Both the position numbers and the translations under genes were made by a program. Below are positions 1 through 16,727 of a stretch of 48,177 nt of DNA, piece after piece (position 1 is the stretch's first letter; each line of letters begins with the position of its first letter). The stretch is from an uncultured Opitutaceae bacterium. GTDB taxonomy: Bacteria > Verrucomicrobiota > Verrucomicrobiia > Opitutales > Opitutaceae. The notes below the pieces were generated by a model. That model was not told the origin of the DNA. It ran no database searches and saw nothing but the letters and a program-made list of their open reading frames with translations. The DNA is taken from the NCBI GenBank assembly GCA_903916755.1, contig CAIWXW010000197.1, forward strand, positions 1 to 48,177. Direction: 5' to 3'.

Positions 1-525
1 GGAGCTCACGCTGCTCAGGTAGTCGGTGAAGATGAAGGTCGTGCCGCTGCCGTCCGAGCGGTGAACCACGACGATCTCCTGCGCGGGCAGGTCGACCCCG
101 GGGTTCTGGCTCTTGATGGCGGCGTCATCCCACTTGGTGATCTTGCCCAGGAAGATGCTCGCCAGGGTCGGACCATCGAGCTTCAGCTTCGGGTTGCCGG
201 GGACATTGTAGCTGATGACGACCGCACCGGCCACCGTCGGGATGTGCCAGAGGGCGCGGGGCGCCTTGGCCAGATTCTCGTCGGACATCGGGCCGTCCGA
301 GGCGCCGAAGTCGACCGTCTCGGCCAGGATCTGCTTCTGGCCGCCGCCGGAGCCAATGCCCTGGTAGTTGAACTGGACCGAGGAATCGATCTTCCCGAAC
401 TCCGAGAACCACTTGGTATAGATCGGCTGGGGGAAGGTGGCGCCGGCGCCGTTGATCTGCATCTGCGCCTGGGCCGCGCCCGTCAGGGCGAGGCCGCAGA
501 TCGCGGTAAGGAGGAAGTTTTTCAT
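1..525 (-). CDS. pstS: Phosphate-binding protein PstS, C-terminal part beyond the window
   Basis: This would be the periplasmic phosphate-binding subunit of the high-affinity Pst ABC importer. The 175 visible codons start at the ATG at 525 and stay open to the left edge. Residues 1-20 form a signal peptide (MKNFLL, ending AQAQ). The mature part carries family hallmarks: [13 protein letters not shown] near residue 24, the glycine-rich [16 protein letters not shown], and [17 protein letters not shown] near the edge, whose Ser/Gly/Thr loop contacts phosphate in the family. It lies 24 bases downstream of the porin gene on the same strand, so the two are probably co-transcribed. pstC, pstA and pstB would be expected further left but are out of view. 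The identification is firm. The C-terminal half is unseen only because of the window edge. Confidence 0.95.
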
Positions 526-549: not shown

Positions 550-1917
550 TTAGAAGTTAACTTGAAGCTGGGTGCGAATGCCGTCGGTCGAGGCCTTGAT
601 GGCTGTGCCATTGGGCACGACACCGGTGGCGGTGGTGGGCAGGATGGCGCCCTTGGACTGGCCGTGGATGTAGCCGAGCTGGAGCTTCACGTCGTTGCCT
701 TCAATGTACCAGTTGCCGCCGAAGTACCACTCTTCCATCTTGTTCATCGTCCCGCCGGAGGTGGCGCCGCGGATGCCATCGGACAGGGCCACGCCGCGAT
801 CGTCGGAGTCGACGTAGCTGTAGCGGGCCACCGCCTCGAGGACCTTCGGGATGACGTAATAGGAGGGCTGGATCCAGGCGCCATCGGGCTTCGCGGCCCG
901 GGTCATGCCGCGGACGACGACCGCGTTCTGGTCGTTGGCCTTCATGTATTCCGCCTGGAGGTTGAAGTCGCCCGCCGTTAGGTCGGTGTAGGCGCCGTAG
1001 ATCGAGAGGTTGTTGCCGAGGCCCACCGTGGTGCCGGGGCCGCCCTGGTCGGGCAGGTAGCCCGCCTCAACGCCGACCTTGTACGTCAGCCAGTCGAACT
1101 TGCCGCCGTAGCCGCCCCAGCCGTAGTAGGCCAGGTTGTTGTTGGTGCTCGTGCTGTAGTTGCCGACGCCGCCGCTGCCGTTGACCGAGTCGGTCGTGGC
1201 GGTGGAGCCCGCGGTGGAGTCGCCGCTGTACTCGTTGCGCTCCGGGTTGGTGACGGCGACCATGTAGAACCAGCCGTCCTGGGTCCCGCTGGCGTAGAGG
1301 CCGGTGCGGTAGCTGGCGGCGCCGAGGCGGCGGCCGTTGTTCGGCTCGTCAAAGTAGCGGGTGATCGGCGAGCGCTCGATCGCCTTCAAGGCGCCGCTCG
1401 AGGTCACTTCCTCGTAATCGAAGGGCGCCTTGCGCAAGCCGGCGTCCAGGACGAGGAAATCGCTCTGCTTCCATTCAATGTAGGCCGCGTCAAAGGAGAC
1501 ATTGGCAAAGTCATAGTTCACGTAACCCGAGAAATTATCGGTGAAGTCGACCTTGGTGCCGAGGTAGACGCGGCGGAGGAGGAAGTGCTCGGAGGCGACG
1601 GGGTGCGCCGGCGCGACGGCCGGGGCGAAATTCTGGAAGCCGTCGATGCTGGTGCCGAGGTCGGCGAACTGCACCTGGAAGCGGCCCGTCAGGGTGATCC
1701 GCTTGAGGAACTTGTCCGCGGGATTGCTCATCACGTCGTTGCCCGCGTTGTTCTTGGCCATCTCGTCGGTGATCTGCTGGGCCTCACCGGCGGTGAGCAC
1801 CCCTTTGTCGATCAGGACGTTCAGGAGGGCCTTGTCATTGGTCTGCGCCAGCGCGGCGGAGGCGCTGAGGAGGGCACTGCCCAGCAGGGCGCACCAGGTC
1901 ATTTTCGAGGGAAGCAT
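550..1917 (-). CDS. Phosphate-selective porin (OprO/OprP-like)
   Basis: This is an outer-membrane beta-barrel porin of 455 residues. I chose the ATG at 1917 because it is followed at once by a signal peptide (MLPSKMTWCALLG..., ending ALA-Q at about residue 24); a second ATG at 1902 is possible. The frame stays open further upstream, but that part has no signal sequence. A short helical segment after the signal (LLNVLIDKGVLT, GEAQQITDEM) is followed by alternating aromatic beta-strand sequence, a low-complexity Ser/Thr/Gly/Asn loop around residues 235-265, and a terminal phenylalanine (LQVNF) typical of barrel insertion signals. The sequence fits the Porin_O_P family. pstS follows immediately downstream, which supports a phosphate or polyphosphate role. 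I see no convincing Pho box upstream, although the regulator's consensus in this lineage is unknown to me. Confidence 0.85.
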   Translation of the reverse strand: MLPSKMTWCALLGSALLSASAALAQTNDKALLNVLIDKGVLTAGEAQQITDEMAKNNAGNDVMSNPADKFLKRITLTGRFQVQFADLGTSIDGFQNFAPAVAPAHPVASEHFLLRRVYLGTKVDFTDNFSGYVNYDFANVSFDAAYIEWKQSDFLVLDAGLRKAPFDYEEVTSSGALKAIERSPITRYFDEPNNGRRLGAASYRTGLYASGTQDGWFYMVAVTNPERNEYSGDSTAGSTATTDSVNGSGGVGNYSTSTNNNLAYYGWGGYGGKFDWLTYKVGVEAGYLPDQGGPGTTVGLGNNLSIYGAYTDLTAGDFNLQAEYMKANDQNAVVVRGMTRAAKPDGAWIQPSYYVIPKVLEAVARYSYVDSDDRGVALSDGIRGATSGGTMNKMEEWYFGGNWYIEGNDVKLQLGYIHGQSKGAILPTTATGVVPNGTAIKASTDGIRTQLQVNF

Positions 1918-2030
1918 GGAGGGAGTATTATTCTGAATGGGTTGGTATGCGGTGAGCACCCCCCAGTTGTAGCAGGCGATTGTTACGAACGCGTGGCGGC
2001 CCCGCGACAACGCGGCGAAGAAGAATCTGC

Positions 2031-2044
2031 TTTGCGCTTTGCGC
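2031..2044 (+). repeat. Tandem 7-base repeat in the porin/SulP divergent region
   Basis: TTTGCGC occurs twice head to tail. Just before it, CCGCG at 2002-2006 and CGCGG at 2011-2015 form a small dyad with an ACAA loop. Both sit between the divergent porin and SulP genes, where operators would be expected. No binding protein can be named. Confidence 0.35.
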
Positions 2045-2065
2045 CTTTCCACCAACCCTTTGGGG

Positions 2066-3904
2066 ATGAACCCGGTGGCTGAGCTGACGGAGGGGGTGGC
2101 GACCCTGAGCGCGAACATGTTCCGCGTCCGGTTCCCCTTCTTTGGCGAGCTTCGGCGCTACTCCTGGGAAAAATTCCGCGCCGACCTGCTCTCGGCCTGC
2201 ACGGTCTCCCTGGTCTCGATTCCCCAGGCGATCGGCTTCGCCCTGATCCTGGGCCTCCCACCCCTGCCCGTGATCACCTCGGTCGTCGTGGGCGGCTTCG
2301 TCGGGGCGCTGTTCTTCTCCTCGCATCACCACGTCTTCGGGCCCACCAACTCGATCAGCATCATCGTGGCGTCGACCCTCGCCGCCCATGCCGCCAGCGG
2401 GCTGACCCCGCTGCAGCTGGCGGTCTACCTCTCGCTGCTGATCGGCGCCATCCAGCTGGTCGCCGGGCTGTTCAACTTCGGCGAGCTGACCAAGTTCATC
2501 TCCCGCTCGGTGGTCATCAGCTACAGCACGGGGATCGGCATCCTCCTCATCGTCGGCCAGCTGCACAACGGCCTCGGCATGGAAAGCAACACGGGCGCCA
2601 GCTTCCGGGAGTGGGTGTGGCACGCGGCGGAATCGGTCTCGACCGGGCGCTTCAATCCGTGGGCGCTCGGCATCTCCGTCCTGACCCTCCTGATCTTCGA
2701 GGGGGTGCGCCGCTGGCGGCCGAGCTGGCCCGAGGCCCTGATCGGCCTGGCGGTCCTCGGCGTCGCCTCGCGGCTCTATTCCCACTTCAACGGCCATCCG
2801 CCCTTCCGGCTGATCCTCGACGAGGGCGCCCTGACCGCCGCCGTCCCGATGTTCTCGGGCTGGCACTTCGGCCACCAGCACCTGGCCCTCCTCCCCACCC
2901 TCGTGGGCACCGCGGTCGCCGTCTCCATCCTGGGCATGCTCGAGGCCGCCTCGATCACCAAGTCGCTGGCGGCGAAAAGCGGCCAGAAGATCGAGCCCAA
3001 CCAGGAACTGATCGGGATGGGGGTCGGCAACATCGCCTGCGCCCTCTTCAACGCGGTGCCCGGCTCCTCCTCCTTCACCCGGTCGGCGGTCGCCTACCAG
3101 AGCGGGGCCCGCACCCAGCTGGCCTCGATCTTCAGCAGCGGCGTCGTGCTCCTGGTCCTCCTGTTCATCGCGCCGATCGTGAACTACATCCCGGTGGCCG
3201 CGCTGGCCACCCACCTGATCAGGGTCGGCGTGAAGATGATCAACTGGCCCCACATCCGGGTCGCCTGCCGCGCCACCCGCTCCGACGCGGTCGTCTTCGG
3301 CATCACGCTGGTCGCCTGCCTGGTCCTCAAGCTGGACACCGCGATCTACGTGGGCATCGGCATGTCCCTGGCCCTCTTCCTGCAGAAATCGGCCACCCCG
3401 ATCCTGGTGGAGTACAGCTTCAACGAGAGCGGCAACCTGGCGGAGCTGACGGACGAGGCCAAGCGGCCCAATCCTCAGATCTCGATCATCCATGTCGAGG
3501 GCGAGCTTTTCTTCGGCGCCGCCGACCTGTTCCAGTCCCAGGTGCGCCGGCAGGCGGAGGACGAGAACATCCGCGTGTTCATCCTGCGGATGAAGAATGC
3601 GCGCCACCTCGACGCCACGACCGTGCTCGCCCTGGAGCAGCTGCACGAGTACCTGCGGACCACCAACCGCCACCTGCTGATCAGCGGCAGCACGCCCGAG
3701 GTCACGACGGTCCTGCGCCGCAGCGGGCTGCTGGCGAAGATCGGCGCCGAGAACATCTTTCCCGCCGAGGCCAATCCGACGGCGGCGACGCGGCGCGCGC
3801 TCAAGCGGGCGAACGAGATCCTCCCGCCCAACGCGGATGTCCGGCTCTTCTACGAGAAGCTGCAGGACCCGCTCGACGGCTCGCTCGCCGAATACGAGAT
3901 CTAG
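2066..3904 (+). CDS. SulP-family inorganic anion transporter with STAS domain
   Basis: This is an inner-membrane anion transporter or exchanger of about 612 residues. Residues from about 45 to 430 form the multi-span SulP core. It opens with the family-typical stretch YSWEKFRADLLSACTVSLVSIPQAIGFAL and holds the loops FGPTNSISIIVAS and FNAVPGSSSFTRSAV. A C-terminal STAS domain begins near ISIIHVEGELFFGAADL and continues through LDATTVLALEQL. Starts at 2039, 2066 and 2117 are possible. I prefer the ATG at 2066, preceded by a GGGG run; the family core begins after 2117. Substrate (sulfate, bicarbonate or another anion) cannot be told from sequence. The gene is divergent from the porin. Its TAG stop overlaps the stop of the convergent SNF2 gene inside a CTAG palindrome. 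Confidence 0.9.
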   Translation: MNPVAELTEGVATLSANMFRVRFPFFGELRRYSWEKFRADLLSACTVSLVSIPQAIGFALILGLPPLPVITSVVVGGFVGALFFSSHHHVFGPTNSISIIVASTLAAHAASGLTPLQLAVYLSLLIGAIQLVAGLFNFGELTKFISRSVVISYSTGIGILLIVGQLHNGLGMESNTGASFREWVWHAAESVSTGRFNPWALGISVLTLLIFEGVRRWRPSWPEALIGLAVLGVASRLYSHFNGHPPFRLILDEGALTAAVPMFSGWHFGHQHLALLPTLVGTAVAVSILGMLEAASITKSLAAKSGQKIEPNQELIGMGVGNIACALFNAVPGSSSFTRSAVAYQSGARTQLASIFSSGVVLLVLLFIAPIVNYIPVAALATHLIRVGVKMINWPHIRVACRATRSDAVVFGITLVACLVLKLDTAIYVGIGMSLALFLQKSATPILVEYSFNESGNLAELTDEAKRPNPQISIIHVEGELFFGAADLFQSQVRRQAEDENIRVFILRMKNARHLDATTVLALEQLHEYLRTTNRHLLISGSTPEVTTVLRRSGLLAKIGAENIFPAEANPTAATRRALKRANEILPPNADVRLFYEKLQDPLDGSLAEYEI

Positions 3905-6653: not shown

Positions 6654-8393
6654 ATGGCGATTACCTTGACCCGACCTGTTCCCGAACGACGCTCGGCCGT
6701 CTGGCTCGACGCGCTCATTCTGGTCGGCTTCGCCGCTTTCCTCTTCGGCGCGGCGAGCGTTGCCCGCGAATGGAGCCAGCCCCGCAACCTGACGGTCGAC
6801 ATCGACCTCTCGCTGCGCTCGCTGCCCAAATACGCGCTCTACACCTTCGCGCGGGCCTGGCTGGCCTATCTCCTCTCGCTCCTCTTCACGCTGATCGTCG
6901 CCTCCTGGGCCTTCTATGACGAGCGGGCCCGGCGCTTCATCCTGGTCGCGCTCGACATTCTGCAGAGCCTGCCCGTCCTCGCCTTCCTGCCCGTCTTCGA
7001 GCTGCCGCTGATCGCGCTGTTCCCGCACAGCAACGTCGGGCTGGAGCTGGTCTGCGTCCTGGCGATGTTCACGGGCCAGGTCTGGAACATGACGTTCAGC
7101 TACTACGATTCGCTGCGCGGCACGCCGCCGGACTTCCGGATGCTGGGCAAGCTCTACAATTTCAACTGGTGGAACCGGTTCTGGCGGGTCGAGCTCCCGT
7201 TCGGCGCGCAGGGACTCCTTTACAACAGCATGGTCTCGATGGCGGGCGGCTGGTTTTTCCTGACGATCACCGAAGCCTCGACCATCGGCAACCAGGCCTA
7301 CCGCGTGCCCGGGCTCGGATCCTACATGAGCGTCGCCAACGACCGGGGCGACGTCCGCGCCGTCATCTACGGCATCATCGCGATGAGCCTGGTGATCGTC
7401 GTCGTCGACCGCCTGATCTGGGGCCCGCTCGTCTCCTGGTCGCGCAAGTTCAAGCTGGATGACTTCGGGACCGGCGGCTCCCGCAAGTCCCGCCTCCAGC
7501 TCTGGCTGGCGCGCTCCGTGGCGGCCCAGCAGATCGGGGCGTTCCTCCAGCGCGGCAAGAGCCGCCTGATTCCCCCGCCCAAGCCGCCGACCGCGGCGGA
7601 GTCCCTCGTTCCGCCCGGCACGCCCCCGGCGCAGCGCGGCAAGTTCAACCGGGGGCTCTACTATGTCCTCCTCTTTGTGCTGGTGCTTCTCCTCGCCAAG
7701 GGCGCCCAGTCGATCTGGCTCCTGCTGGCGCAGGTCCGCGGCAGCGAGTGGCTGATCATCCTGCGCGACGCCGGGCTGAGCTTCGCCCGGGTGCTGGCGG
7801 CGGTCCTCCTCGGCACGCTCTGGACGGTCCCGTTCGGGATCTGGATCGGGCTCAATCCCAAGCTGTCCAACCGCTTCCAGCCCTTCATCCAGTTTGTCGC
7901 TTCGTTCCCGTCCCCCATGATCTACCCCGCCCTCCTGCTGCTGGTGCTCGCCGTCGGCGGGACGCTGCAATGGGGTGCCGTGCTCCTGATCCTGTTCGGC
8001 ACGCAGTGGTACATCCTGTTCAACGTCGCGGGCGCGGCCGCGGCCATTCCCAACGACATCGTCTGCTGCGCGGACATCCTGCGCCTGTCGGGCTGGCGCC
8101 GCTGGCAGAAGTTCCTGATTCCGGCCATCCTGCCCGGGCTGGTCACTGGCTGGATCACCGCCGCCGGCGGGGCCTGGAACGCCACCATCGTCTCCGAAAT
8201 CCTCACGGTGCACGGCCATGCCTATGAGGCCACCGGGCTGGGCGCCTACATCTCGCACGCGACCGACGCGGGCGACTTCTCCCGGCTGACCGCCGCCTCG
8301 CTGGTCATGGCGCTGATCGTGGTCGTCGTGAACCGCAGCGTGTGGAAGCGCATCCAGAGCCTCGCCAACGAACGCTGCCGCTTTATCACCTGA
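6654..8393 (+). CDS. ABC importer permease, two permease domains fused in one chain
   Basis: This membrane protein of 579 residues contains two binding-protein-dependent permease domains in tandem, where most importers use two copies of a subunit. Each half has its own EAA-like loop that docks on the ATPase: around PDFRMLGKLYNF followed by VELPFGAQGLLYN in the first half, and ADILRLSGWRRW followed by LIPAILPGLVTG in the second. A hydrophilic Pro/Ala/Lys-rich linker (about residues 270-325) joins the halves. The sequence resembles the nitrate/sulfonate/bicarbonate (NitT/TauT) class. The ATPase gene follows after 5 bases. No substrate-binding protein gene lies nearby, so the substrate is unknown. 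An ancestral duplication followed by fusion is inferred from the two loops. Confidence 0.88.
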   Translation: MAITLTRPVPERRSAVWLDALILVGFAAFLFGAASVAREWSQPRNLTVDIDLSLRSLPKYALYTFARAWLAYLLSLLFTLIVASWAFYDERARRFILVALDILQSLPVLAFLPVFELPLIALFPHSNVGLELVCVLAMFTGQVWNMTFSYYDSLRGTPPDFRMLGKLYNFNWWNRFWRVELPFGAQGLLYNSMVSMAGGWFFLTITEASTIGNQAYRVPGLGSYMSVANDRGDVRAVIYGIIAMSLVIVVVDRLIWGPLVSWSRKFKLDDFGTGGSRKSRLQLWLARSVAAQQIGAFLQRGKSRLIPPPKPPTAAESLVPPGTPPAQRGKFNRGLYYVLLFVLVLLLAKGAQSIWLLLAQVRGSEWLIILRDAGLSFARVLAAVLLGTLWTVPFGIWIGLNPKLSNRFQPFIQFVASFPSPMIYPALLLLVLAVGGTLQWGAVLLILFGTQWYILFNVAGAAAAIPNDIVCCADILRLSGWRRWQKFLIPAILPGLVTGWITAAGGAWNATIVSEILTVHGHAYEATGLGAYISHATDAGDFSRLTAASLVMALIVVVVNRSVWKRIQSLANERCRFIT

Positions 8394-8398
8394 ACGCC

Positions 8399-9766
8399 AT
8401 GGATTCCGCCTCGACGCCCCTGATCGAACTTCGCCACATCGGCCACGACTACGCGGCGGCCGGCCAGCAGAGCGAGCCGGTGCTGAGCGACATCAACCTG
8501 ACGATCCGCGAGAACGACGCCGTCGCGCTCCTCGGGCCCTCCGGCTGCGGCAAGTCCACGCTGCTGCGCGTCATGGCCGGCCTGATCTCGCCGACCCAGG
8601 GGGAGGTCTTCTACAAGGGCATGCTGCTGCGCGGGATCTCCCCGGGCGTGTCGATGGTCTTCCAGAACTTCGCCCTCTTTCCCTGGCTGACGGTGCATGG
8701 GAACGTCCTCCTGCCGGTGGGCACGCTGCCCGCGGCCGAGCAGCAGTCGCGCCTCGAGAAGGTCCTCAACACCGTCGGCCTGGGCGCCTATGAATATGCC
8801 TATCCCCGCGAGCTTTCCGGCGGCATGAAGCAGCGGGTGGGCATCGCCCGCGCCCTGATCGCGGAGCCCGAGGTGCTGGCGATGGACGAACCCTTCAGCG
8901 CCCTCGACGTCCTCACGGCCGAAACGCTCCGCGGTGAAATCGGCCGGCTGGTGGCGGATCCGAACCACCCCCTGCGAACGATGGTGTTCGTGACCCACAA
9001 CATCACGGAAGCCGTCTTCCTCGCGACCCGCATCGTCGTCATGGCGGCCGGACCCGGGCGCGTGGACGTGGTCGTCCCCAACACCCTGCCCTATCCGCGC
9101 GATCCCGATGCCCCGGAATTCAAGCAGATCGTCGAGCGGCTCCATGGCATTCTCACCCACACCAACCTCCCGGAGACGACGCCGGCCGAAGCCGGGCGGG
9201 TGGTCACCCCGATCGACGAGTCCCGCCGCCGCATCGCGCCGGTCTCGCTCCCCTATGTCACCCCGGCCGAGGTCCTCGGCCTCCTGGCGCTGATGGGCGA
9301 CGCGTCCACCGACGTCTTCGAGCTGGCCGAGCGCTTCGGCAAGGAGTTCGGCTATGTCGTGCGCGTGGTCAAGGCCGCCGAACTGCTCGAATTCGTGCAG
9401 ACCCCCCAGCATGACGCCCTGCTGACGCCGCTGGGCCAGCGGCTGGTCGCCGCGTCCACGGCCGACCAGAAGCGGATGGTCCGCGAGCAGCTGCTGAAGC
9501 TGAAGATCTTCGAACTGCTGGTCCGGCTGATCAAGGTCCAGGAGAACCAGCAGCTGACCGCCGAGGAGCTCCTGCGCGAGCTGCAGGCCGCCCTGCCCCA
9601 CGAGAAGCCCAAGCTGCTCTTCCGCACGCTCCTCAGCTGGGGCCGGTACGCGGAAATCATCAGCTACGACCAGCGCCGGCACCTGATCCGCAATTACGAG
9701 AGCCGCGGGGCGCAGCGGACCCGGACCGCGGCGGCGGTTCCGCCGGCCGACGTAGCGCAATCGTAA
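8399..9766 (+). CDS. ABC importer ATPase with C-terminal AAA-associated domain
   Basis: This is the ATP-hydrolysing subunit for the preceding permease, 455 residues. Walker A is GPSGCGKST (46-54), the Q-loop is near FQNFALFP, the signature is LSGGMKQR (139-146), Walker B is VLAMDEP (159-165), and the switch histidine follows in VFVTHN. I set the start at the ATG at 8399 (MDSASTPLIEL); an upstream ATG at 8342 would overlap the permease by 52 bases. After the ATPase core (about 260 residues) comes an extra domain of roughly 150 residues, beginning near VTPAEVLGLLALMGD and helical through LLRELQAALPHEK. It matches the AAA-associated C-terminal domain found on some NitT/TauT-type ATPases and may sense the substrate or regulate the pump. 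The last 20 residues are Arg/Ala-rich and probably disordered. Confidence 0.9.
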   Translation: MDSASTPLIELRHIGHDYAAAGQQSEPVLSDINLTIRENDAVALLGPSGCGKSTLLRVMAGLISPTQGEVFYKGMLLRGISPGVSMVFQNFALFPWLTVHGNVLLPVGTLPAAEQQSRLEKVLNTVGLGAYEYAYPRELSGGMKQRVGIARALIAEPEVLAMDEPFSALDVLTAETLRGEIGRLVADPNHPLRTMVFVTHNITEAVFLATRIVVMAAGPGRVDVVVPNTLPYPRDPDAPEFKQIVERLHGILTHTNLPETTPAEAGRVVTPIDESRRRIAPVSLPYVTPAEVLGLLALMGDASTDVFELAERFGKEFGYVVRVVKAAELLEFVQTPQHDALLTPLGQRLVAASTADQKRMVREQLLKLKIFELLVRLIKVQENQQLTAEELLRELQAALPHEKPKLLFRTLLSWGRYAEIISYDQRRHLIRNYESRGAQRTRTAAAVPPADVAQS

Positions 9767-9786
9767 CCGGGGCGACACCGCCCCGG
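9767..9786 (+). terminator. GC-rich hairpin directly after the ABC ATPase gene
   Basis: CCGGGGCG and CGCCCCGG form a perfect 8-bp stem with an ACAC loop, starting at the base after the TAA stop. No T-tract follows, so if it terminates transcription it is not a classical intrinsic terminator. It may instead stabilise the upstream mRNA or insulate the two operons. Confidence 0.55.
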
Positions 9787-9817
9787 CACATCGCTCCGCT
9801 TTAATAGCGGCGATGTG
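9787..9817 (+). promoter_or_regulatory. Start-codon-sequestering hairpin of the lipid operon
   Basis: CACATCGC (9787-9794) pairs perfectly with GCGATGTG (9810-9817). Inside it, CGCT (9797-9800) pairs with AGCG (9806-9809) around a TTAAT loop, leaving a two-base bulge TC. The result is a 12-bp stem whose last three 3' bases are the GTG start codon at 9815. It begins one base after the preceding hairpin ends. The position suggests translational control of the glycosyltransferase gene. The ligand or trigger is unknown. Confidence 0.55.
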
Positions 9818-10999
9818 AAACTCGCCTTCGTCACCGAAACCTTCCCGCCCGAGGTCAACGGCGTCGCCATGACGTTCGGGGTGATCGCGCGGGAGCTGGC
9901 CCGCCGGGGCCATGCGGTGACGGTGTTTCGGCCGGAACGGCCGCCCGGGACGACGGCCGCCGCGGAGGCTCCCTTCCGGGAGGTGCCGATGCCAGGCTGT
10001 CCGGTGCCCGGCTATCCCGCCCTCCGGCTGGGACTGCCCGCCCGGCGCGCCCTGCGGATCCGCTGGGGCGCCAATCGGCCCGACCTGGTGCACGTGGTCA
10101 CCGAAGGTCCCCTGGGCGCCTCGGCCGTCGGCGCCGCGCGCGATCTCAACCTCCCGGTCACCTCCCGCTTCCATACGAACTTTCACCGCTACGCGCGCGA
10201 TTATCGCTGCGGCTGGCTGCGGCCCCTGGCGCTCGCCTGGCTGCGGCGGGTGCATAACCGCACCCGCCGGACCTTCGTGCCGACGGCCGAGCTGCAGGCC
10301 GAGCTGGCGCGGGCGGGGTTTCGCGGCCTGGGGCTGCTCTCGCGGGGGGTGGACACGGCGCAGTTTCATCCGGGCCACCGCTGCGCGGCGCTCCGCGCCT
10401 CCTGGGCCGCCGGGCCGGCGGATCCGGTCGTGCTGCACGTGGGCCGGCTGGCCGCGGAAAAGAACTATCCCCTCCTCTTCCGGGCCTACGCCGCCATGCG
10501 CGCAATCAATCCGCGCTGCCGCTTTGTCGTGGCCGGCGAGGGCCCGCTGGAAGGCCGGCTTAAGCGCGAGCACCCCGACTGCATCTTCGCGGGCTTCTTC
10601 TCCCGCGACGAGATCGGCCGCTACTATGCCTCCGCGGATATCTACATCCACGCCAGCTCCTCCGAGACCTTCGGCAACGTCCTGACCGAGGCCATGGCGA
10701 GCGGCCTGGCCGTCGCGGGCTTTGACTACGCCGCCGCGCGCCAGTTTGTCCGGCACGGGGAAAACGGACTGGCCACTCCCCTGGGCGATCCCTCGGGCCT
10801 GATCGAAGCCGCGGCCCGGCTGGCCGCCGATCCCGCGCTCCGGCAGCGGCTCCGCCAGGGGGCCCGCGCCGCCGTGGAGGCGCAGGCCTGGGAAAAAGTC
10901 ATCGTCCGCTTCGAAACCGACCTGATCCGCGTGATCGAGGAGGCCCGGAGTTCCGCCCCGCTTCCGCCCGTGTCCCTTTCCGCCCATGCTGCTGCCTGA
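9815..10999 (+). CDS. GT4-family glycosyltransferase, probably acting on a lipid
   Basis: This is a retaining glycosyltransferase of the GT-B fold, 394 residues. The N-terminal MKLAFVTETFPPEVNGV and VTEGPLGASAVGAAR are typical of the SqdX/MgtA/Agt-like branch. The C-terminal domain carries HVGRLAAEKNYPLL, the E-x7-E-type motif region SSSETFGNVLTEAMASGLAV, and a following stretch rich in Ala and Arg. Family members add a sugar to diacylglycerol or to related lipid or mannoside acceptors. Its neighbours (GT28 lipid glycosyltransferase, diacylglycerol kinase, PlcP-like phosphoesterase) favour diacylglycerol here, but the sugar cannot be read from sequence. The GTG start lies within a hairpin stem (9787-9817), and no good Shine-Dalgarno precedes it. 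The 3' end overlaps the next gene by 14 bases. Confidence 0.88.
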   Translation: MKLAFVTETFPPEVNGVAMTFGVIARELARRGHAVTVFRPERPPGTTAAAEAPFREVPMPGCPVPGYPALRLGLPARRALRIRWGANRPDLVHVVTEGPLGASAVGAARDLNLPVTSRFHTNFHRYARDYRCGWLRPLALAWLRRVHNRTRRTFVPTAELQAELARAGFRGLGLLSRGVDTAQFHPGHRCAALRASWAAGPADPVVLHVGRLAAEKNYPLLFRAYAAMRAINPRCRFVVAGEGPLEGRLKREHPDCIFAGFFSRDEIGRYYASADIYIHASSSETFGNVLTEAMASGLAVAGFDYAAARQFVRHGENGLATPLGDPSGLIEAAARLAADPALRQRLRQGARAAVEAQAWEKVIVRFETDLIRVIEEARSSAPLPPVSLSAHAAA

Positions 11000-12143
11000 A
11001 TCCGCCGGCCGCGCCGGGCCTCCCATCCTCGTCCTGACCGCCGGCTACGGCGAGGGTCATAACGCGGCCGCCCGCGCGCTGGCCGCCGCCATCGACGACG
11101 AGGCCGGCCCGGGCACCGCCCGCATCATCGATCTCTTCGCCCTGGCCACGCCCCGGCTGAACACGGTCGTCCGGCGGGCCTACTTCGGGGCGATCAACCC
11201 CACGCCACGCCTGTGGGGCCGGCTCTTCAACTGGCTGGACCGCCACGATACGATCCCGCGGCGCCTGAGCCTGATGCCGGCGCCGCTGCGCAAGCTCGAG
11301 GCGATCCTGGCCGCCGAGCAGCCCGTCGCCGTCTGCAGCACGTATCCGGCCTACGGGATCATGCTCGATCACCTGGCCCGCCAGGGGCGTTTCGCCCTCG
11401 CCCATTTCACGGTTGTGACCGATTCGATCAGCATCAATTCGCTGTGGTGGCGGGCCCCGTCCACCGGCTGGTTTCTCCCCAACGAGGAATCCGCCGACGT
11501 CCTGCGCCGGGCCGGCGTAGCGCCCGGCCGGGTGCACGTGCACGGCTTCCCGGTACCCCGTTATTTTGGCGACGAGGCGGCCCGGCTCGCGCCGCCCGAC
11601 CTGACCGCCGGCGCCGCGCCCCGCGTCCTCTACATCGTGCACTCGGGCACGCGGCATGCCGGCCAGACCGCCCGGCTGCTGCTGGCCGAGACCGACTGGG
11701 AGATCACCTTCGCCGTCGGGCGCGACGAGGCGCTGCGCCGGGAACTGGCCGCGCTGGCCCGGAACCGGTTCCGCCGCGCCGAGGTCCTCGGCTGGACCAA
11801 TCGCATCCCGGAACTGCTGATGACCCACCACGCGGTCGTCAGCAAGGCGGGCGGCGCCACCGTGCAGGAGGCGATCGCCGCCCTGTGTCCGATGATCGTC
11901 AATCAGATCGTGCCCGGCCAGGAAGAGGGCAACTACGAGCTTATGCGGCGCCGCGGCGCCGGCGCTCTCGCGCAGACTCCCGACGAGGTCATCAGCGCCC
12001 TCCGGCGCGCCTTCGCCTGGCGGGGCGCCGTCTGGCGCCAGTGGCGCCGCGCGCTGGAGCCCCTGGCTCGCCCCTCCGCCGCGCGTGACATCGCCCTCCA
12101 TGTCCTCGACCATGCCCGGGCGCCCCGCGCCGACCGCGTCTGA
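10986..12143 (+). CDS. MGDG-synthase-like GT28 glycosyltransferase
   Basis: This is an inverting glycosyltransferase of 385 residues resembling monogalactosyldiacylglycerol synthase and the processive diacylglycerol glucosyltransferase UgtP. The N-terminal lipid-binding signature is ILVLTAGYGEGHNAAARAL (about residues 14-32), with its Gly/His core. Next come VCSTYPAYGIMLDHLA and VVTDSISINSLWW. The nucleotide-sugar site is VVSKAGGATVQEAIAALCP followed by QIVPGQEEGNYELM. It overlaps the GT4 gene by 14 bases, which indicates translational coupling. It probably transfers a hexose from a UDP-sugar to diacylglycerol, or a second sugar to the GT4 product, at the inner membrane. A MurG-like role is less likely because the N-terminal signature matches the MGDG branch. 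Confidence 0.88.
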   Translation: MLLPESAGRAGPPILVLTAGYGEGHNAAARALAAAIDDEAGPGTARIIDLFALATPRLNTVVRRAYFGAINPTPRLWGRLFNWLDRHDTIPRRLSLMPAPLRKLEAILAAEQPVAVCSTYPAYGIMLDHLARQGRFALAHFTVVTDSISINSLWWRAPSTGWFLPNEESADVLRRAGVAPGRVHVHGFPVPRYFGDEAARLAPPDLTAGAAPRVLYIVHSGTRHAGQTARLLLAETDWEITFAVGRDEALRRELAALARNRFRRAEVLGWTNRIPELLMTHHAVVSKAGGATVQEAIAALCPMIVNQIVPGQEEGNYELMRRRGAGALAQTPDEVISALRRAFAWRGAVWRQWRRALEPLARPSAARDIALHVLDHARAPRADRV

Positions 12144-12151
12144 CCTGACCG

Positions 12152-13114
12152 ATGCCGCCGCACCCTTCCTCCGCCCCCTTTCCCTCCCCGCGCCGCCCGA
12201 TTCGCGGCACCGGCGGTGCCGTCCCGCTGTCGGCGGGTAAGATGCGGTTCATTTTCAACCCCCATTCGGGCAATTTCCGGCGGAACGAGCAGCTGCTGTC
12301 GCTGCTCCGCCATTTCCTCGCGACCAGCGGCGTTGACGGGGACCTGCAGCTGACGACCGGCCCCGGGCATGCCACCGCGCTGGCCCGGGAAGCCGTCCGC
12401 CACGGCTGCGGCCGGGTGATCGCGATCGGCGGCGACGGCACCGTCAATGAGGTCGCCCAGGGGCTCCGCCACACCGCCGCGGCGCTGGCCATCGTGCCGA
12501 CCGGTTCGGGCAACGGACTGGCCCGCCACCTGCGACTTCCTTCCGATCCGGAAGCGGCGCTGCGCCTCGCCACCGCGCCCCAGGCGCGGATCGTCGCCCT
12601 CGACTACGGCACGGTCAATGGGCGCCCATTTTTCAACGCCATGGGCTTCGGCCTCGACGCGGAGATCAGCCGGCGCTTCAACCGGCTGAAACGCCGCGGC
12701 CTGCCCGCCTACGTGCGGACGGCGCTCGCCGCCTTCTTCAGCCGCACCTCCGAGCCCTGCGTCGTCTCGGACCACCACGGGCGCGAGGCCATGGAGATCC
12801 TCCTGCTGGCGGTCGCCAATTCGGATCAGTATGGCAATGGCGCGGTCATCGCCCCGGGCGCCCGCATGGACGACGGCGAGCTCGACCTCGTGGCGGTGCG
12901 CCCCGTCGGCCTCATCGCCGCCACCCTCCTGGGCGCCCGCCTCTTCCTGGGCACCTTCGATCGCGGCGCCGCCGTGCGCCGGCTGCGCGGCGCCCGCTTT
13001 CGCATCGAGCGCGCCGCCCCCGGCGACATCCACACGGACGGGGAAGTGCACGCGGCGGCCGCCGTCCTCGATGTCGTCGTGCATCCCCGCAGCCTTCACG
13101 TCGTCGTCCCATGA
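12152..13114 (+). CDS. Diacylglycerol kinase family lipid kinase
   Basis: This is a DAGK-catalytic-domain lipid kinase related to DgkB and YegS, 320 residues from this ATG. The family core begins at RFIFNPHSGN, so the ATG at 12242 (290 residues) is an equally good start; the first 30 residues are Pro/Arg-rich and not part of the domain. Key motifs are IAIGGDGTVNEVAQ (nucleotide binding and catalysis) and IVPTGSGNGLARHL, with DDGELDLV and the HTDGEV turn near the end. It would phosphorylate diacylglycerol to phosphatidate using ATP. The related ceramide or other lipid kinase activities cannot be excluded. It lies 8 bases after the GT28 gene, and its TGA overlaps the next ATG (ATGA). In this operon it could limit or recycle the diacylglycerol used for glycolipid synthesis. 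Confidence 0.9.
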   Translation: MPPHPSSAPFPSPRRPIRGTGGAVPLSAGKMRFIFNPHSGNFRRNEQLLSLLRHFLATSGVDGDLQLTTGPGHATALAREAVRHGCGRVIAIGGDGTVNEVAQGLRHTAAALAIVPTGSGNGLARHLRLPSDPEAALRLATAPQARIVALDYGTVNGRPFFNAMGFGLDAEISRRFNRLKRRGLPAYVRTALAAFFSRTSEPCVVSDHHGREAMEILLLAVANSDQYGNGAVIAPGARMDDGELDLVAVRPVGLIAATLLGARLFLGTFDRGAAVRRLRGARFRIERAAPGDIHTDGEVHAAAAVLDVVVHPRSLHVVVP

Positions 13115-13950
13115 AGAAACTCCGCGTTCGGACCGTGATCCTCTCCGACGTGCATCTCGGCACGCCGGAATGCAAGTTCCGGGAGGTGAATCACTTCCTG
13201 CGGCACGTGCGTTGCGACAAGCTGATCCTGAACGGCGACATCATCGATGGGTGGTATCTCCGCCGCGCCGGGCAGTGGCACAAGGGCCACACCCGCTTCA
13301 TCCGCATCATCCTCAAGATGCTGGAGAAAAAGGATACCGAAGTGGTGTACCTGCGCGGCAATCACGACGACATCCTGGCCAAGTTTCTGCCGATGTCGTT
13401 CGCCCGGCTCTCGATCGTCGAGGACCACGTCCACGTCGGCCCGCGCGGGCGCTACCTCGTCCTGCACGGGGACATCTTCGACACGATCACCAGCCAGTTC
13501 GTGTTCCTGGCGCACGTCGGCGACTGGGGCTACCATCTCCTCCTGAAGATCAACCGGGCCTACAATGCCTGGCGGGCCTGGCGCGGCCAGGAATACTGGT
13601 CCCTGAGCAAGGCGATCAAGGCGCGGGTCAAGTCCGCGGTCAGCCATGTGTCGAAATTCGAGGACCACCTGGTGCGGCTCGCCCGGCAGCGCGGCTGCGT
13701 GGGCGTCATCTGCGGGCACATCCATACCCCGGCCGACAAGATGCTCGGTGAGATTCACTACCTGAATTCCGGTGACTGGGTGGAGTCCCTGACCGCGATC
13801 GTGGAGCATTGGGACGGCAGCTATGAGCTGGTCGAATACACCGCCTTTGCCCGCGATTTCCCGTCCGGCGGAGGCAATGAAGAGGACGCCGCCCCTGCGG
13901 TGGTGCTGGAAGCGCCGCTGCCCGGCGTGGCGCCCGTGGCCGCGGGCTAG
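13111..13950 (+). CDS. PlcP-like metallophosphoesterase (phospholipase C candidate)
   Basis: This is a calcineurin-like metallophosphoesterase of 279 residues. All metal and catalytic motifs are present: SDVHLG (D13, H15), NGDIIDGW (D43), GNHDD (N84, H85), LHGDIFD (H119) and CGHIHTP (H203, H205). The overall sequence, including WSLSKAIKARVKSAVSHVSKFED and LNSGDWVESLTAIVEH, matches what I know of PlcP, the phospholipase C that rhizobia and marine bacteria use to strip phospholipids under phosphate limitation. Databases often label such proteins UDP-2,3-diacylglucosamine hydrolase (LpxH-like), which remains an alternative. It overlaps the kinase gene by four bases and is last in the operon. Grouping with two diacylglycerol glycosyltransferases favours the PlcP reading: phospholipid to diacylglycerol plus phosphorylated head group. 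About 20 C-terminal residues are Ala/Pro-rich. Confidence 0.85.
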   Translation: MKKLRVRTVILSDVHLGTPECKFREVNHFLRHVRCDKLILNGDIIDGWYLRRAGQWHKGHTRFIRIILKMLEKKDTEVVYLRGNHDDILAKFLPMSFARLSIVEDHVHVGPRGRYLVLHGDIFDTITSQFVFLAHVGDWGYHLLLKINRAYNAWRAWRGQEYWSLSKAIKARVKSAVSHVSKFEDHLVRLARQRGCVGVICGHIHTPADKMLGEIHYLNSGDWVESLTAIVEHWDGSYELVEYTAFARDFPSGGGNEEDAAPAVVLEAPLPGVAPVAAG

Positions 13951-15339: not shown

Positions 15340-16620
15340 CTAGCCGCGGGACTGCAATTCCTCGCGGATCACCGCCAGGGTCCGCTCCATGGCGCCCGCA
15401 TTTTCCCGGCGCCATGCCTCCGCCCCCCGCGCCAGGCCGTCCCGGCTCGCGGTGTCGTGCAGCAACCGCAGCGCCTGGGCCGCCAGGTCGGGAGCGTCTT
15501 CTACCCGCCGGGCGGCACCTCGGTTGACCAGGTCGCCGGCCAGCTGGCGGAAATTGCCCATGCCCGGCCCAAAAAGGATGGGTTTTCCCAGCGCCGCCGC
15601 CTCCACCGGCGTCTGGCCCTCGCTGTGCGGGGGCAGGCTCTTGCCCACGAACACCAGGTCGGCCAGCTGCGTGAGCTGGCGCAATTCGCCCGTCGTATCG
15701 GCCACCGCCACGTCGACGGGGCCGGGCGCCGCCCCGGCCGTGCGGAAATGGTAGGTCAGGCCGGTGCCGCGCAGGAGCGTCTCGATCTCCCCGCGCCGCT
15801 CGGCATGGCGGGGGACGAGGAGGAGCGAGCCCTGCAGGCCGTCGGCGCGCGCGCGCCGCAGCGCCTCGACCAGGGCGGCTTCCTCTCCCGGCCAGGTGGA
15901 GGAGCCGAGCAGGACAAAGCCGGGGGGAAGGCCAAGCTCCCCGCGGAGGCGGACCCGCGCGGCCTCGTCGAGCCGCGGAATCTCGATATCCAGCTTGATG
16001 TTGCCGACCATCCGCATCCGCGCCGGCGGGAATCCCAGCGCGGTGAACCGGGCTTCATCCTGGAGCGAGGTCGGCAGCAGGCGCGCGATCCCGTCGAGCA
16101 TGAGCCGGGCAACCGGTGAAATCAGGCGCAGGCGCCGGTAGCTTCGGTCGGAGATGCGGGCGTTGATGCAGAGCACCGGGGCGCCATGCCGCCGGGCCTG
16201 GTGAATGTGCTCTGGCCAGCGCTCGCCCTCCGTAAGGATGACCAGGTCGGGAGCGATCCGGCGCCACGCCCGCGCCGAGAAGGGCCACCAATCGATCGGG
16301 AAATACCCGACATCCAGGACCAGGGCGCGGTAGCGTTCCATCGCCATCCGGTAGCCCGTGCTGGTGGTGGTCGTCAGGTAGACCTCGGCGTTGTCCCGGC
16401 GGAGGGCCTCCAGCATCGGCCCGATCGCCAGCATCTCCCCGACGCTGACGGCCTGGAGCCATATCCGCTTCGTGCCCACCCGCCGGGCCGCGACCACCTG
16501 GCCGCCAAAGCGGTGGCTGAACTTCTCCCCGTAGCCGCCGCGCCGCCGCATCCGCCGCAGGTACGAGGGTGCGACCAGGAGAAAGACCGGGAGGAAAAGC
16601 AGCCGATAGAGCCAAAGCAT
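15340..16620 (-). CDS. waaA: 3-deoxy-D-manno-octulosonic acid (Kdo) transferase
   Basis: WaaA transfers Kdo from CMP-Kdo to lipid A precursor at the inner membrane, a core step of lipopolysaccharide synthesis. The protein has 426 residues, the usual length. An N-terminal membrane anchor (MLWLYRLLFLPVFLLVAP) precedes the GT30 glycosyltransferase fold. The conserved WLQAVSVGE holds the catalytic glutamate near residue 62. The segment usually read as E-T-E-x-W-P-N appears here as EGERWPE, keeping the two Glu and the Trp-Pro. GSSTWPGEE and the C-terminal GKSLPPHSEGQTPVEAAALGKPILFGP are the donor-binding signatures; LPPHSEGQ corresponds to the usual G-G-Q-N region. It is convergent with the MFS gene and divergent from the M16 genes. 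Its presence shows that this organism makes LPS. Confidence 0.93.
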   Translation of the reverse strand: MLWLYRLLFLPVFLLVAPSYLRRMRRRGGYGEKFSHRFGGQVVAARRVGTKRIWLQAVSVGEMLAIGPMLEALRRDNAEVYLTTTTSTGYRMAMERYRALVLDVGYFPIDWWPFSARAWRRIAPDLVILTEGERWPEHIHQARRHGAPVLCINARISDRSYRRLRLISPVARLMLDGIARLLPTSLQDEARFTALGFPPARMRMVGNIKLDIEIPRLDEAARVRLRGELGLPPGFVLLGSSTWPGEEAALVEALRRARADGLQGSLLLVPRHAERRGEIETLLRGTGLTYHFRTAGAAPGPVDVAVADTTGELRQLTQLADLVFVGKSLPPHSEGQTPVEAAALGKPILFGPGMGNFRQLAGDLVNRGAARRVEDAPDLAAQALRLLHDTASRDGLARGAEAWRRENAGAMERTLAVIREELQSRG

Positions 16621-16657
16621 GGGTCCGGCCGAGGTTGGAGCCGGGAGGCGCCCGGCG

Positions 16658-16693
16658 GCAATGCCACTCTTTCGGGCACCGTTCGGGCATTGC
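16658..16693. promoter_or_regulatory. Inverted repeat enclosing phased direct repeats between waaA and the peptidase genes
   Basis: GCAATGCC (16658-16665) and GGCATTGC (16686-16693) are perfect 8-base inverted arms. Within and beside them TTCGGGCA occurs twice (16671-16678 and 16682-16689), exactly 11 bases apart, one helical turn. Such phasing is typical of response-regulator sites, for example PhoB-type boxes, though the bases themselves do not match the E. coli Pho box. It sits in the 107-base divergent region and could control waaA, the peptidase pair, or both. Confidence 0.45.
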
Positions 16694-16727
16694 GGGTGTC
16701 CCCCAGGTCGTCCACGATGGACATTTC

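Follow-up and report, generated by a model that had tools for sequence, protein, structure and literature searches.

The window analyzed here, a stretch of 48,177 nucleotides, is the start of contig C197 in a draft genome of 227 contigs from an uncultured Opitutaceae bacterium. Open reading frame (ORF) and domain calls place four genes in tight tandem on its forward strand between positions 9815 and 13950:

9815..10999, forward strand: GT4 glycosyltransferase, Agt-like, a predicted diacylglycerol glycosyltransferase (394 aa, GTG start; PF13439/PF00534)
10986..12143, forward strand: GT28 glycosyltransferase of the monogalactosyldiacylglycerol (MGDG)-synthase/UgtP type, a predicted second diacylglycerol glycosyltransferase (385 aa; PF06925)
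12152..13114, forward strand: YegS/DgkB-type lipid kinase, a predicted diacylglycerol kinase (320 aa; PF00781 and PF19279)
13111..13950, forward strand: PlcP-type metallophosphoesterase, a predicted phospholipase C that releases diacylglycerol (279 aa; Metallophos, PF00149)

The GT4 and GT28 genes overlap by 14 bp, the GT28 and kinase genes are separated by 8 bp, and the kinase and phosphoesterase genes overlap by 4 bp. The original prediction, which was made from the letters of the window, had described four overlapping or closely spaced genes at this position, and the ORFs, domains and spacings (-14, 8 and -4) bear it out. The comparisons described below make it likely that the tandem belongs to the Pho regulon and is a lipid-remodelling cluster of plcP-agt type, enlarged in Opitutaceae-type Verrucomicrobiota, the group to which the closest named relatives by phosphoesterase belong among the matches listed. 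Gene calls in the scripted surveys of relatives are plain ORFs, and the names of relatives are record titles.

The phosphoesterase is, by sequence comparison, of the PlcP type, and its predicted activity is the hydrolysis of phospholipids to diacylglycerol. Over 275 aa it shares 38% identity with the protein of a Sinorhizobium meliloti PlcP locus (L175, CP090106.1), which we take to be the characterized SMc00171/PlcP, judging from the adjoining acyl-homoserine-lactone synthase and LuxR genes. The record in question is titled plasmid pSymB, at 3.7 Mb, and is possibly mislabelled; this gene neighbourhood is presumably chromosomal in S. meliloti. Identity to Pseudomonas aeruginosa PlcP (L176) is 45% over 240 aa, and identity to Escherichia coli LpxH is 26% over 215 aa (E 2e-5). 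The P. aeruginosa protein is identified as PA3219 from its layout, which matches PA3219-PA3218 as given in PMC8528852 (this and the other papers are cited from the parts of them that were available). The metal-site motifs GD-D, GNHD, HGD and GHIH and the C-terminal GDWVE are all present in the window's protein, and the residues of the PlcP metal-site and C-terminal motifs are invariant across 34 aligned rows, five of them from other phyla; GNHD and GDWVES are common to the PlcP-type rows and are not found in LpxH, which has GNRD. The curated LpxH model gives the protein 35.1 bits, below its 134-bit cut-off, and LpxI is present in the window's genome and in 34/34 other family genomes, including five that have no match to this phosphoesterase. 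A search of the whole genome with the LpxH model returned none at E 0.01, but since it also missed the window's phosphoesterase it excludes only a close LpxH. An enzyme that acts solely as LpxH is unlikely because of the similarity to PlcP, the motifs, and the presence of LpxI in this genome and in all 34 relatives; LpxH was rejected as the identity of the protein on the model score, the distribution of LpxI and the alignment, and the PlcP-like assignment made beforehand holds. The annotation “UDP-2,3-diacylglucosamine diphosphatase” is carried by 20 of the 25 plasmid matches listed, and genes annotated in this way may be PlcP.

The GT4 protein contains the Pfam domains Glyco_transf_4 and Glycos_transf_1 and matches the P. 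aeruginosa glycosyltransferase whose gene overlaps a PlcP-type gene (33.6% over 321 aa, E 2e-38), and its top two NCBIfam models are lipid glycosyltransferases, with scores far under the cut-off. The GT28 protein matches MGDG_synth (PF06925) at 58.5 bits against a gathering cut-off of 25 and the UgtP model PRK13609 at E 5e-40 and 137.7 bits, which is below the 500-bit cut-off; its solved relatives are the processive diacylglycerol beta-glucosyltransferase 9wde and plant MGD1 4wyi. These matches support an Agt-like GT4 and an MGDG-synthase/UgtP-type GT28, the latter being a UgtP homologue. Because both proteins fall below equivalog cut-offs, the acceptor, sugar and product given for each are predictions. 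A match to GT28 at E 1e-10 occurs in 139 of the 387 genomes of a phylum-level search, and the GT28s of Opitutaceae-type clusters (n=16) form a single clade, with 100/100 support, which is split by gene order. Another gene of the MGDG_synth family, a weak match at 26.8 bits, is present in the window's genome (L002, contig C164:8732-9229). The Parabacteroides transferase that adjoins its phosphoesterase was considered as a GT28 and ruled out, because its domain is PF13528.

The kinase contains DAGK_cat (PF00781) and YegS_C (PF19279), scores above the cut-off of TIGR00147 and is the sole DAGK_cat match in the window's genome, which supports the presence of one lipid kinase; a separate gene of the DgkA family lies on contig C89. 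DAGK_cat is present in 29 of the 34 other family genomes. Cluster kinases occupy more than one branch of the kinase tree, mixed with kinases sited elsewhere, and the tree is compatible with one entry of the kinase into the cluster as well as with several. The true start of the kinase may be further inside the ORF, since the conserved region begins some 28 residues after the ATG used. Stretches conserved across relatives are ETFGNVLTE in GT4, GGAT and VPGQEEGN in GT28, GGDGT in the kinase and GDIIDGW, GNHD, HGD and GHIH in the phosphoesterase.

A neighbourhood survey of PlcP homologues, which had been asked for beforehand, was run on two samples. Survey 1 comprises the window and 60 loci of the order, drawn from 59 of 124 matching genomes, and partner genes were counted in it within 4.5 kb of the phosphoesterase. 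Survey 2 comprises the best 80 of at least 575 confirmed phosphoesterase matches, named by record title; its four-gene fraction is biased upward, because these loci are the best matches to the window's phosphoesterase. The surveys share 8 loci and together hold 133 non-redundant ones, some of which extend no more than a few kb from the gene. Survey 1 (n=61) contains PlcP without partners in 18 loci, GT4-PlcP in 15, GT4-kinase-PlcP in 8, GT4-PlcP-GT28 in 7, all four genes in 6 (the window included), GT4-GT28-PlcP in 3, PlcP-GT28 in 2, and kinase-PlcP and PlcP-GT4 in 1 each; a GT4 lies on the strand of the phosphoesterase within 4.5 kb in 40/61. Survey 2 contains all four genes in 28 loci and in 2 more in which GT4 and GT28 are fused, PlcP alone in 16, GT4-GT28-PlcP in 8, GT4-PlcP in 7, GT4-PlcP-GT28 in 6, GT4-kinase-PlcP in 4, a fused GT4::PlcP in 4 and other arrangements in 5. 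All four genes occur in 35 of the 133 non-redundant loci. The arrangement is not a product of chance, because the window's gene order recurs in 6/61 order-level loci (the window included) and in 30/80 loci of survey 2. The four genes thus recur, and the GT4-PlcP pair is the most widespread; from these counts, the core is the GT4-PlcP (agt-plcP) pair, to which Opitutaceae-type genomes have added GT28 and the kinase in varying order.

Two kinds of gene fusion were found in the relatives. GT4 and PlcP are fused in a single ORF of 645-673 aa in four loci (L162, L164, L166 and L168), three from records titled Akkermansiaceae and one from a record titled Akkermansia muciniphila; an assembly slip is unlikely because these fusions are 66-93% identical among themselves and their linkers are continuous. 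GT4 and GT28 are fused in one 761-aa ORF (3766-6051 in L112 and L119), followed by the kinase and PlcP, and the two examples are 92% identical and are therefore counted as one event.

The phosphate-stress setting that had been proposed for the cluster is supported by its linkage to pst genes and by promoter motifs. The features of the window that bear on this setting are as follows:

13..480, reverse strand: gene for a PstS-type phosphate-binding protein, cut by the contig start (PF12849, 114.6 bits)
550..2118, reverse strand: Porin_O_P gene ahead of pstS (PF07396, 73.9 bits)
9750..9767, forward strand: weak Pho-box-like direct repeat (10.3 bits with a matrix trained on pstC sites), which begins 65 bp 5' of GT4 and overlaps the end of an ATPase gene

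The search for pst linkage covered 25 of the 35 family genomes, and in 16/25, the window included, PstS and the phosphoesterase are no more than 25 kb apart; in the remainder PstS is on another draft contig in 6 and truly distant in 3 (G050, G114 and G164). All 15 of the pst stretches that were fetched contain pstSCAB and phoU, 11/15 contain a PiT transporter, and 9/15 have a related porin ahead of pstS. Ahead of pstC stands a repeat, most often TTGT(C/A)AC-N4-C(T/C)GTAAC, which 10/20 loci match in at least 13 of its 14 positions, against 0.03 expected. The matrix was trained on 7 distinct pstC sites, themselves chosen with the relaxed repeat, and applied with a threshold of 10 bits; it finds sites in 56/123 cluster promoters against 4.8 expected, a count that includes non-independent kin sequences, with merging restricted to upstream regions that are identical. 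It finds none in the controls (KdtA 0/22, PhoU 0/22, PiT 0/12 and PstA 0/16, for a total of 0/72), of which PhoU and PstA sit within pst operons; the remaining groups give 5/13 for the porin (0.45 expected), 2/23 for PstS (0.9 expected) and 11/19 for pstC, which is the training set. The relaxed repeat itself matches 36/130 loci in at least 12 of its 14 positions, against 4.5 expected, a post hoc comparison in that the repeat was built partly from the same rows and from pst matches. Judged by these matches, the Pho boxes are clear across relatives and weak in the window, and a testable Pho-box form is thereby supplied for this verrucomicrobial group. One genome (G154, contig C1) contains 39 PF12849 (PstS-like) matches, mostly packed about 1.446-1.508 Mb and also at 3.08 Mb, an unexplained expansion.

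What the sequences show is the conserved order of the genes, the families to which they belong, the presence of LpxI elsewhere, the fusions, pst linkage and the Pho-box enrichment over relatives; in the mechanism proposed for the cluster, we infer every enzymatic step, the acceptor and sugar of both transferases, how GT4 and GT28 share the work and the phosphate control of the window's copy. Low phosphate would lead to Pho-driven transcription of the cluster, and PlcP (13111-13950) would cleave phospholipids, releasing the phosphorylated headgroup and leaving diacylglycerol. Sugar would then be transferred onto the diacylglycerol by the Agt-like GT4, joined in this lineage by the UgtP/MGDG-type GT28, to give phosphorus-free glycolipids, while the YegS/DgkB-type kinase would convert surplus diacylglycerol to phosphatidate, as a relief valve that offers no route back from glycolipid. 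A phosphate-controlled remodelling of phospholipid to glycolipid is, as a reading of these sequences, well supported. The original prediction went further, to a complete, reversible switch in one operon, and this part does not stand. The kinase would act on free diacylglycerol only, and no glycolipid-hydrolysing gene, which would return glycolipid to diacylglycerol, was seen among the cluster genes; “reversible” is too strong because the kinase step would leave glycolipid formation in place. Nor is “complete” apt, given that each of the seven survey 1 genomes with GT4-PlcP-GT28 has its single DAGK_cat gene 19-25 kb upstream in the same orientation and that the window's genome has its separate DgkA-family gene. 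More tentatively, the two transferases, the kinase and PlcP might be joined in a single physical complex that handles diacylglycerol under Pho control, in which PlcP would hand diacylglycerol directly to GT4 and GT28 for two kinds of glycolipid and the kinase would set the return to phospholipid; this is possible, though on balance doubtful. The natural GT4::PlcP and GT4::GT28 fusions provide handles on whether diacylglycerol is channelled.

Several results weigh against a phosphate-controlled lipid-remodelling cluster. Both transferases fall under the cut-offs of characterized lipid-transferase models. The three partners are all missing within 4.5 kb of the phosphoesterase in 18 of the 61 order-level loci, a few of which end close by, so they are dispensable or elsewhere. 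When the window's proteins were searched by tblastn against 13 GT28 loci listed for other families in the class, a stretch or two of them shortened, none of the 13 gave PlcP, GT4 or the kinase within 1.5 kb of GT28; the union of GT28 and PlcP therefore looks specific to this family, save for PlcP-GT28 pairs in one other family of the order. The window's own relaxed Pho box is weak by itself, about 4% of shuffled upstream regions reaching 10 bits, and a strict E. coli-type Pho box is absent from the window and is not enriched over 132 loci (28 observed at 3-4 mismatches, about 25 expected). Two further points on this side also speak for a rival reading, in which the phosphoesterase is an LpxH-like lipid A enzyme and the cluster serves lipopolysaccharide (LPS) assembly with the neighbouring KdtA, the transferases acting on the LPS core. 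The nearest solved fold of the predicted phosphoesterase structure is LpxH (TM about 0.5), from a middling model (19 rows, mean pLDDT 75.8) which cannot separate PlcP from LpxH, and KdtA is nearby in 13/61 loci, which leaves room for an LPS role of a transferase; the LpxH model also gives its weak match (35 bits against 134). LPS assembly is nevertheless very improbable as the role of the cluster, in view of the LpxI found in its own genome and in every relative, even the five without this phosphoesterase, of a protein far nearer PlcP than LpxH with GNHD in place of GNRD, and of pst linkage and Pho-type promoters in the cluster where KdtA promoters give 0/22.

It is also conceivable that the functional unit consists of GT4 and PlcP only, and that GT28 and the kinase have other duties, such as phospholipid turnover or a constitutive glycolipid. 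The pair is indeed widespread, and GT28 and the kinase come, go and move; but gaps inside the six order-level four-gene loci are at most 151 bases, another 8 loci of the order have the kinase flanked by GT4 and PlcP (one with a 1409-base gap), a GT4::GT28 fusion exists, and two order-level loci pair PlcP with GT28 without a nearby GT4, so that a two-gene unit is unlikely. The kinase family includes kinases for other lipids, and the substrate could be a ceramide, a sphingoid base, undecaprenol or monoacylglycerol, in which case there would be no diacylglycerol valve. Sphingosine kinase is among the weaker solved matches and a DgkA-family gene is already present in the genome, but the best solved relatives are BmrU, diacylglycerol kinase, YegS and DgkB, and the kinase is placed with PlcP in 15/61 loci; a substrate other than diacylglycerol accordingly seems improbable. 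The reading that we prefer remains the Pho-regulon cluster of the plcP-agt kind.

Immediately upstream of the cluster is a pair of ATP-binding cassette (ABC) transporter genes of the NitT/TauT type (6654-9766):

6654..8393, forward strand: double-domain ABC permease, NitT/TauT type (two PF00528 stretches)
8342..9766, forward strand: ABC ATPase with an AAA_assoc_C domain (PF00005 and PF09821), which ends 48 bp 5' of GT4

Because the ABC genes end 48 bp before GT4, transcription of the lipid cluster may come from further upstream, and the permease gene is possibly co-transcribed with the lipid genes and may have a functional tie to them. The pair is downstream in two other loci (L058 and L145), where the permease is positioned 3' of GT28. 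Scans of the cluster region for promoters and terminators gave nothing exceeding chance, and tRNA and Rfam scans of the window gave zero matches. Elsewhere in the window is a pair of M16 peptidase genes in head-to-tail overlap (ORFs of 999 and 939 aa, 16569-22368).

The original prediction knew of no description of this four-part arrangement in this lineage, and a literature search, mostly of open-access papers, likewise found no description of the four-gene arrangement, the fusions or a metered diacylglycerol hub. The claim stands only in part, because the components are known in other combinations. Six plcP contexts in marine isolates and plcP-glycosyltransferase clusters have been described, with Verrucomicrobia in the named clades, and the product of a SAR11 agt has been shown (PMC4796936); Agt and its kin have been assigned to GT4 (PMC8231724). 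A table of SAR11 genes that are over-represented in one set of ocean data lists, beside phosphonate genes, three that are found only in HTCC7211, for a DAGK catalytic-domain protein, a metallophosphoesterase and a group 1 glycosyltransferase (PMC3686209). In P. putida BIRD-1 the kinase and PlcP are both lipid-remodelling proteins under phosphate control, PlcP and DagK being named among the Pho-dependent ones (PMC5082522), but what is named beside them there is ornithine-lipid enzymes rather than glycosyltransferases, and clustering is not stated in the part available. Version C of the flexible phosphate island of HIMB59 combines pst and phoRB with genes for a diacylglycerol kinase, an “LpxH” and a glycosyltransferase (PMC10734472); it is a 19-gene marine alphaproteobacterial island for which the available text names neither a GT28 nor a lipid-remodelling reading. 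Annotation habits suggest that this “LpxH” may well be PlcP. Type Ia methanotrophs have plcP near a gene like UgtP, the kind of transferase that makes mono- to tetraglycosyl diacylglycerol in Bacillus subtilis, and the same source reports no PlcP in verrucomicrobial methanotrophs (PMC9239053); according to the portion available they have no agt beside plcP, whereas 16 of the 18 survey 1 loci that contain GT28 also have GT4.

The closest known system is the plcP-agt operon of Sinorhizobium, Agrobacterium, SAR11, Pseudomonas and methanotrophs, which has in common with the window's cluster a PlcP-type phosphoesterase adjoining a GT4 and Pho-box promoters (PMC4796936, PMC8528852, PMC9239053, PMC8231724). 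The cluster differs from this operon in the addition of GT28 and a lipid kinase, in a four-gene form with the transferase first and PlcP last, in the proximity of pst in 16 of 25 family genomes and in the fused versions found in relatives. What is new here is the use of the PstS linkage and of the Pho-box enrichment over cluster promoters as sequence evidence for a phosphate setting. Phosphate-saving membrane remodelling, which has mostly been worked out in Proteobacteria, would thereby reach a group of Verrucomicrobiota whose gene set is richer, and the cluster itself is a real, conserved and probably phosphate-controlled lipid-remodelling cluster, a variant of plcP-agt rather than a new kind of system.

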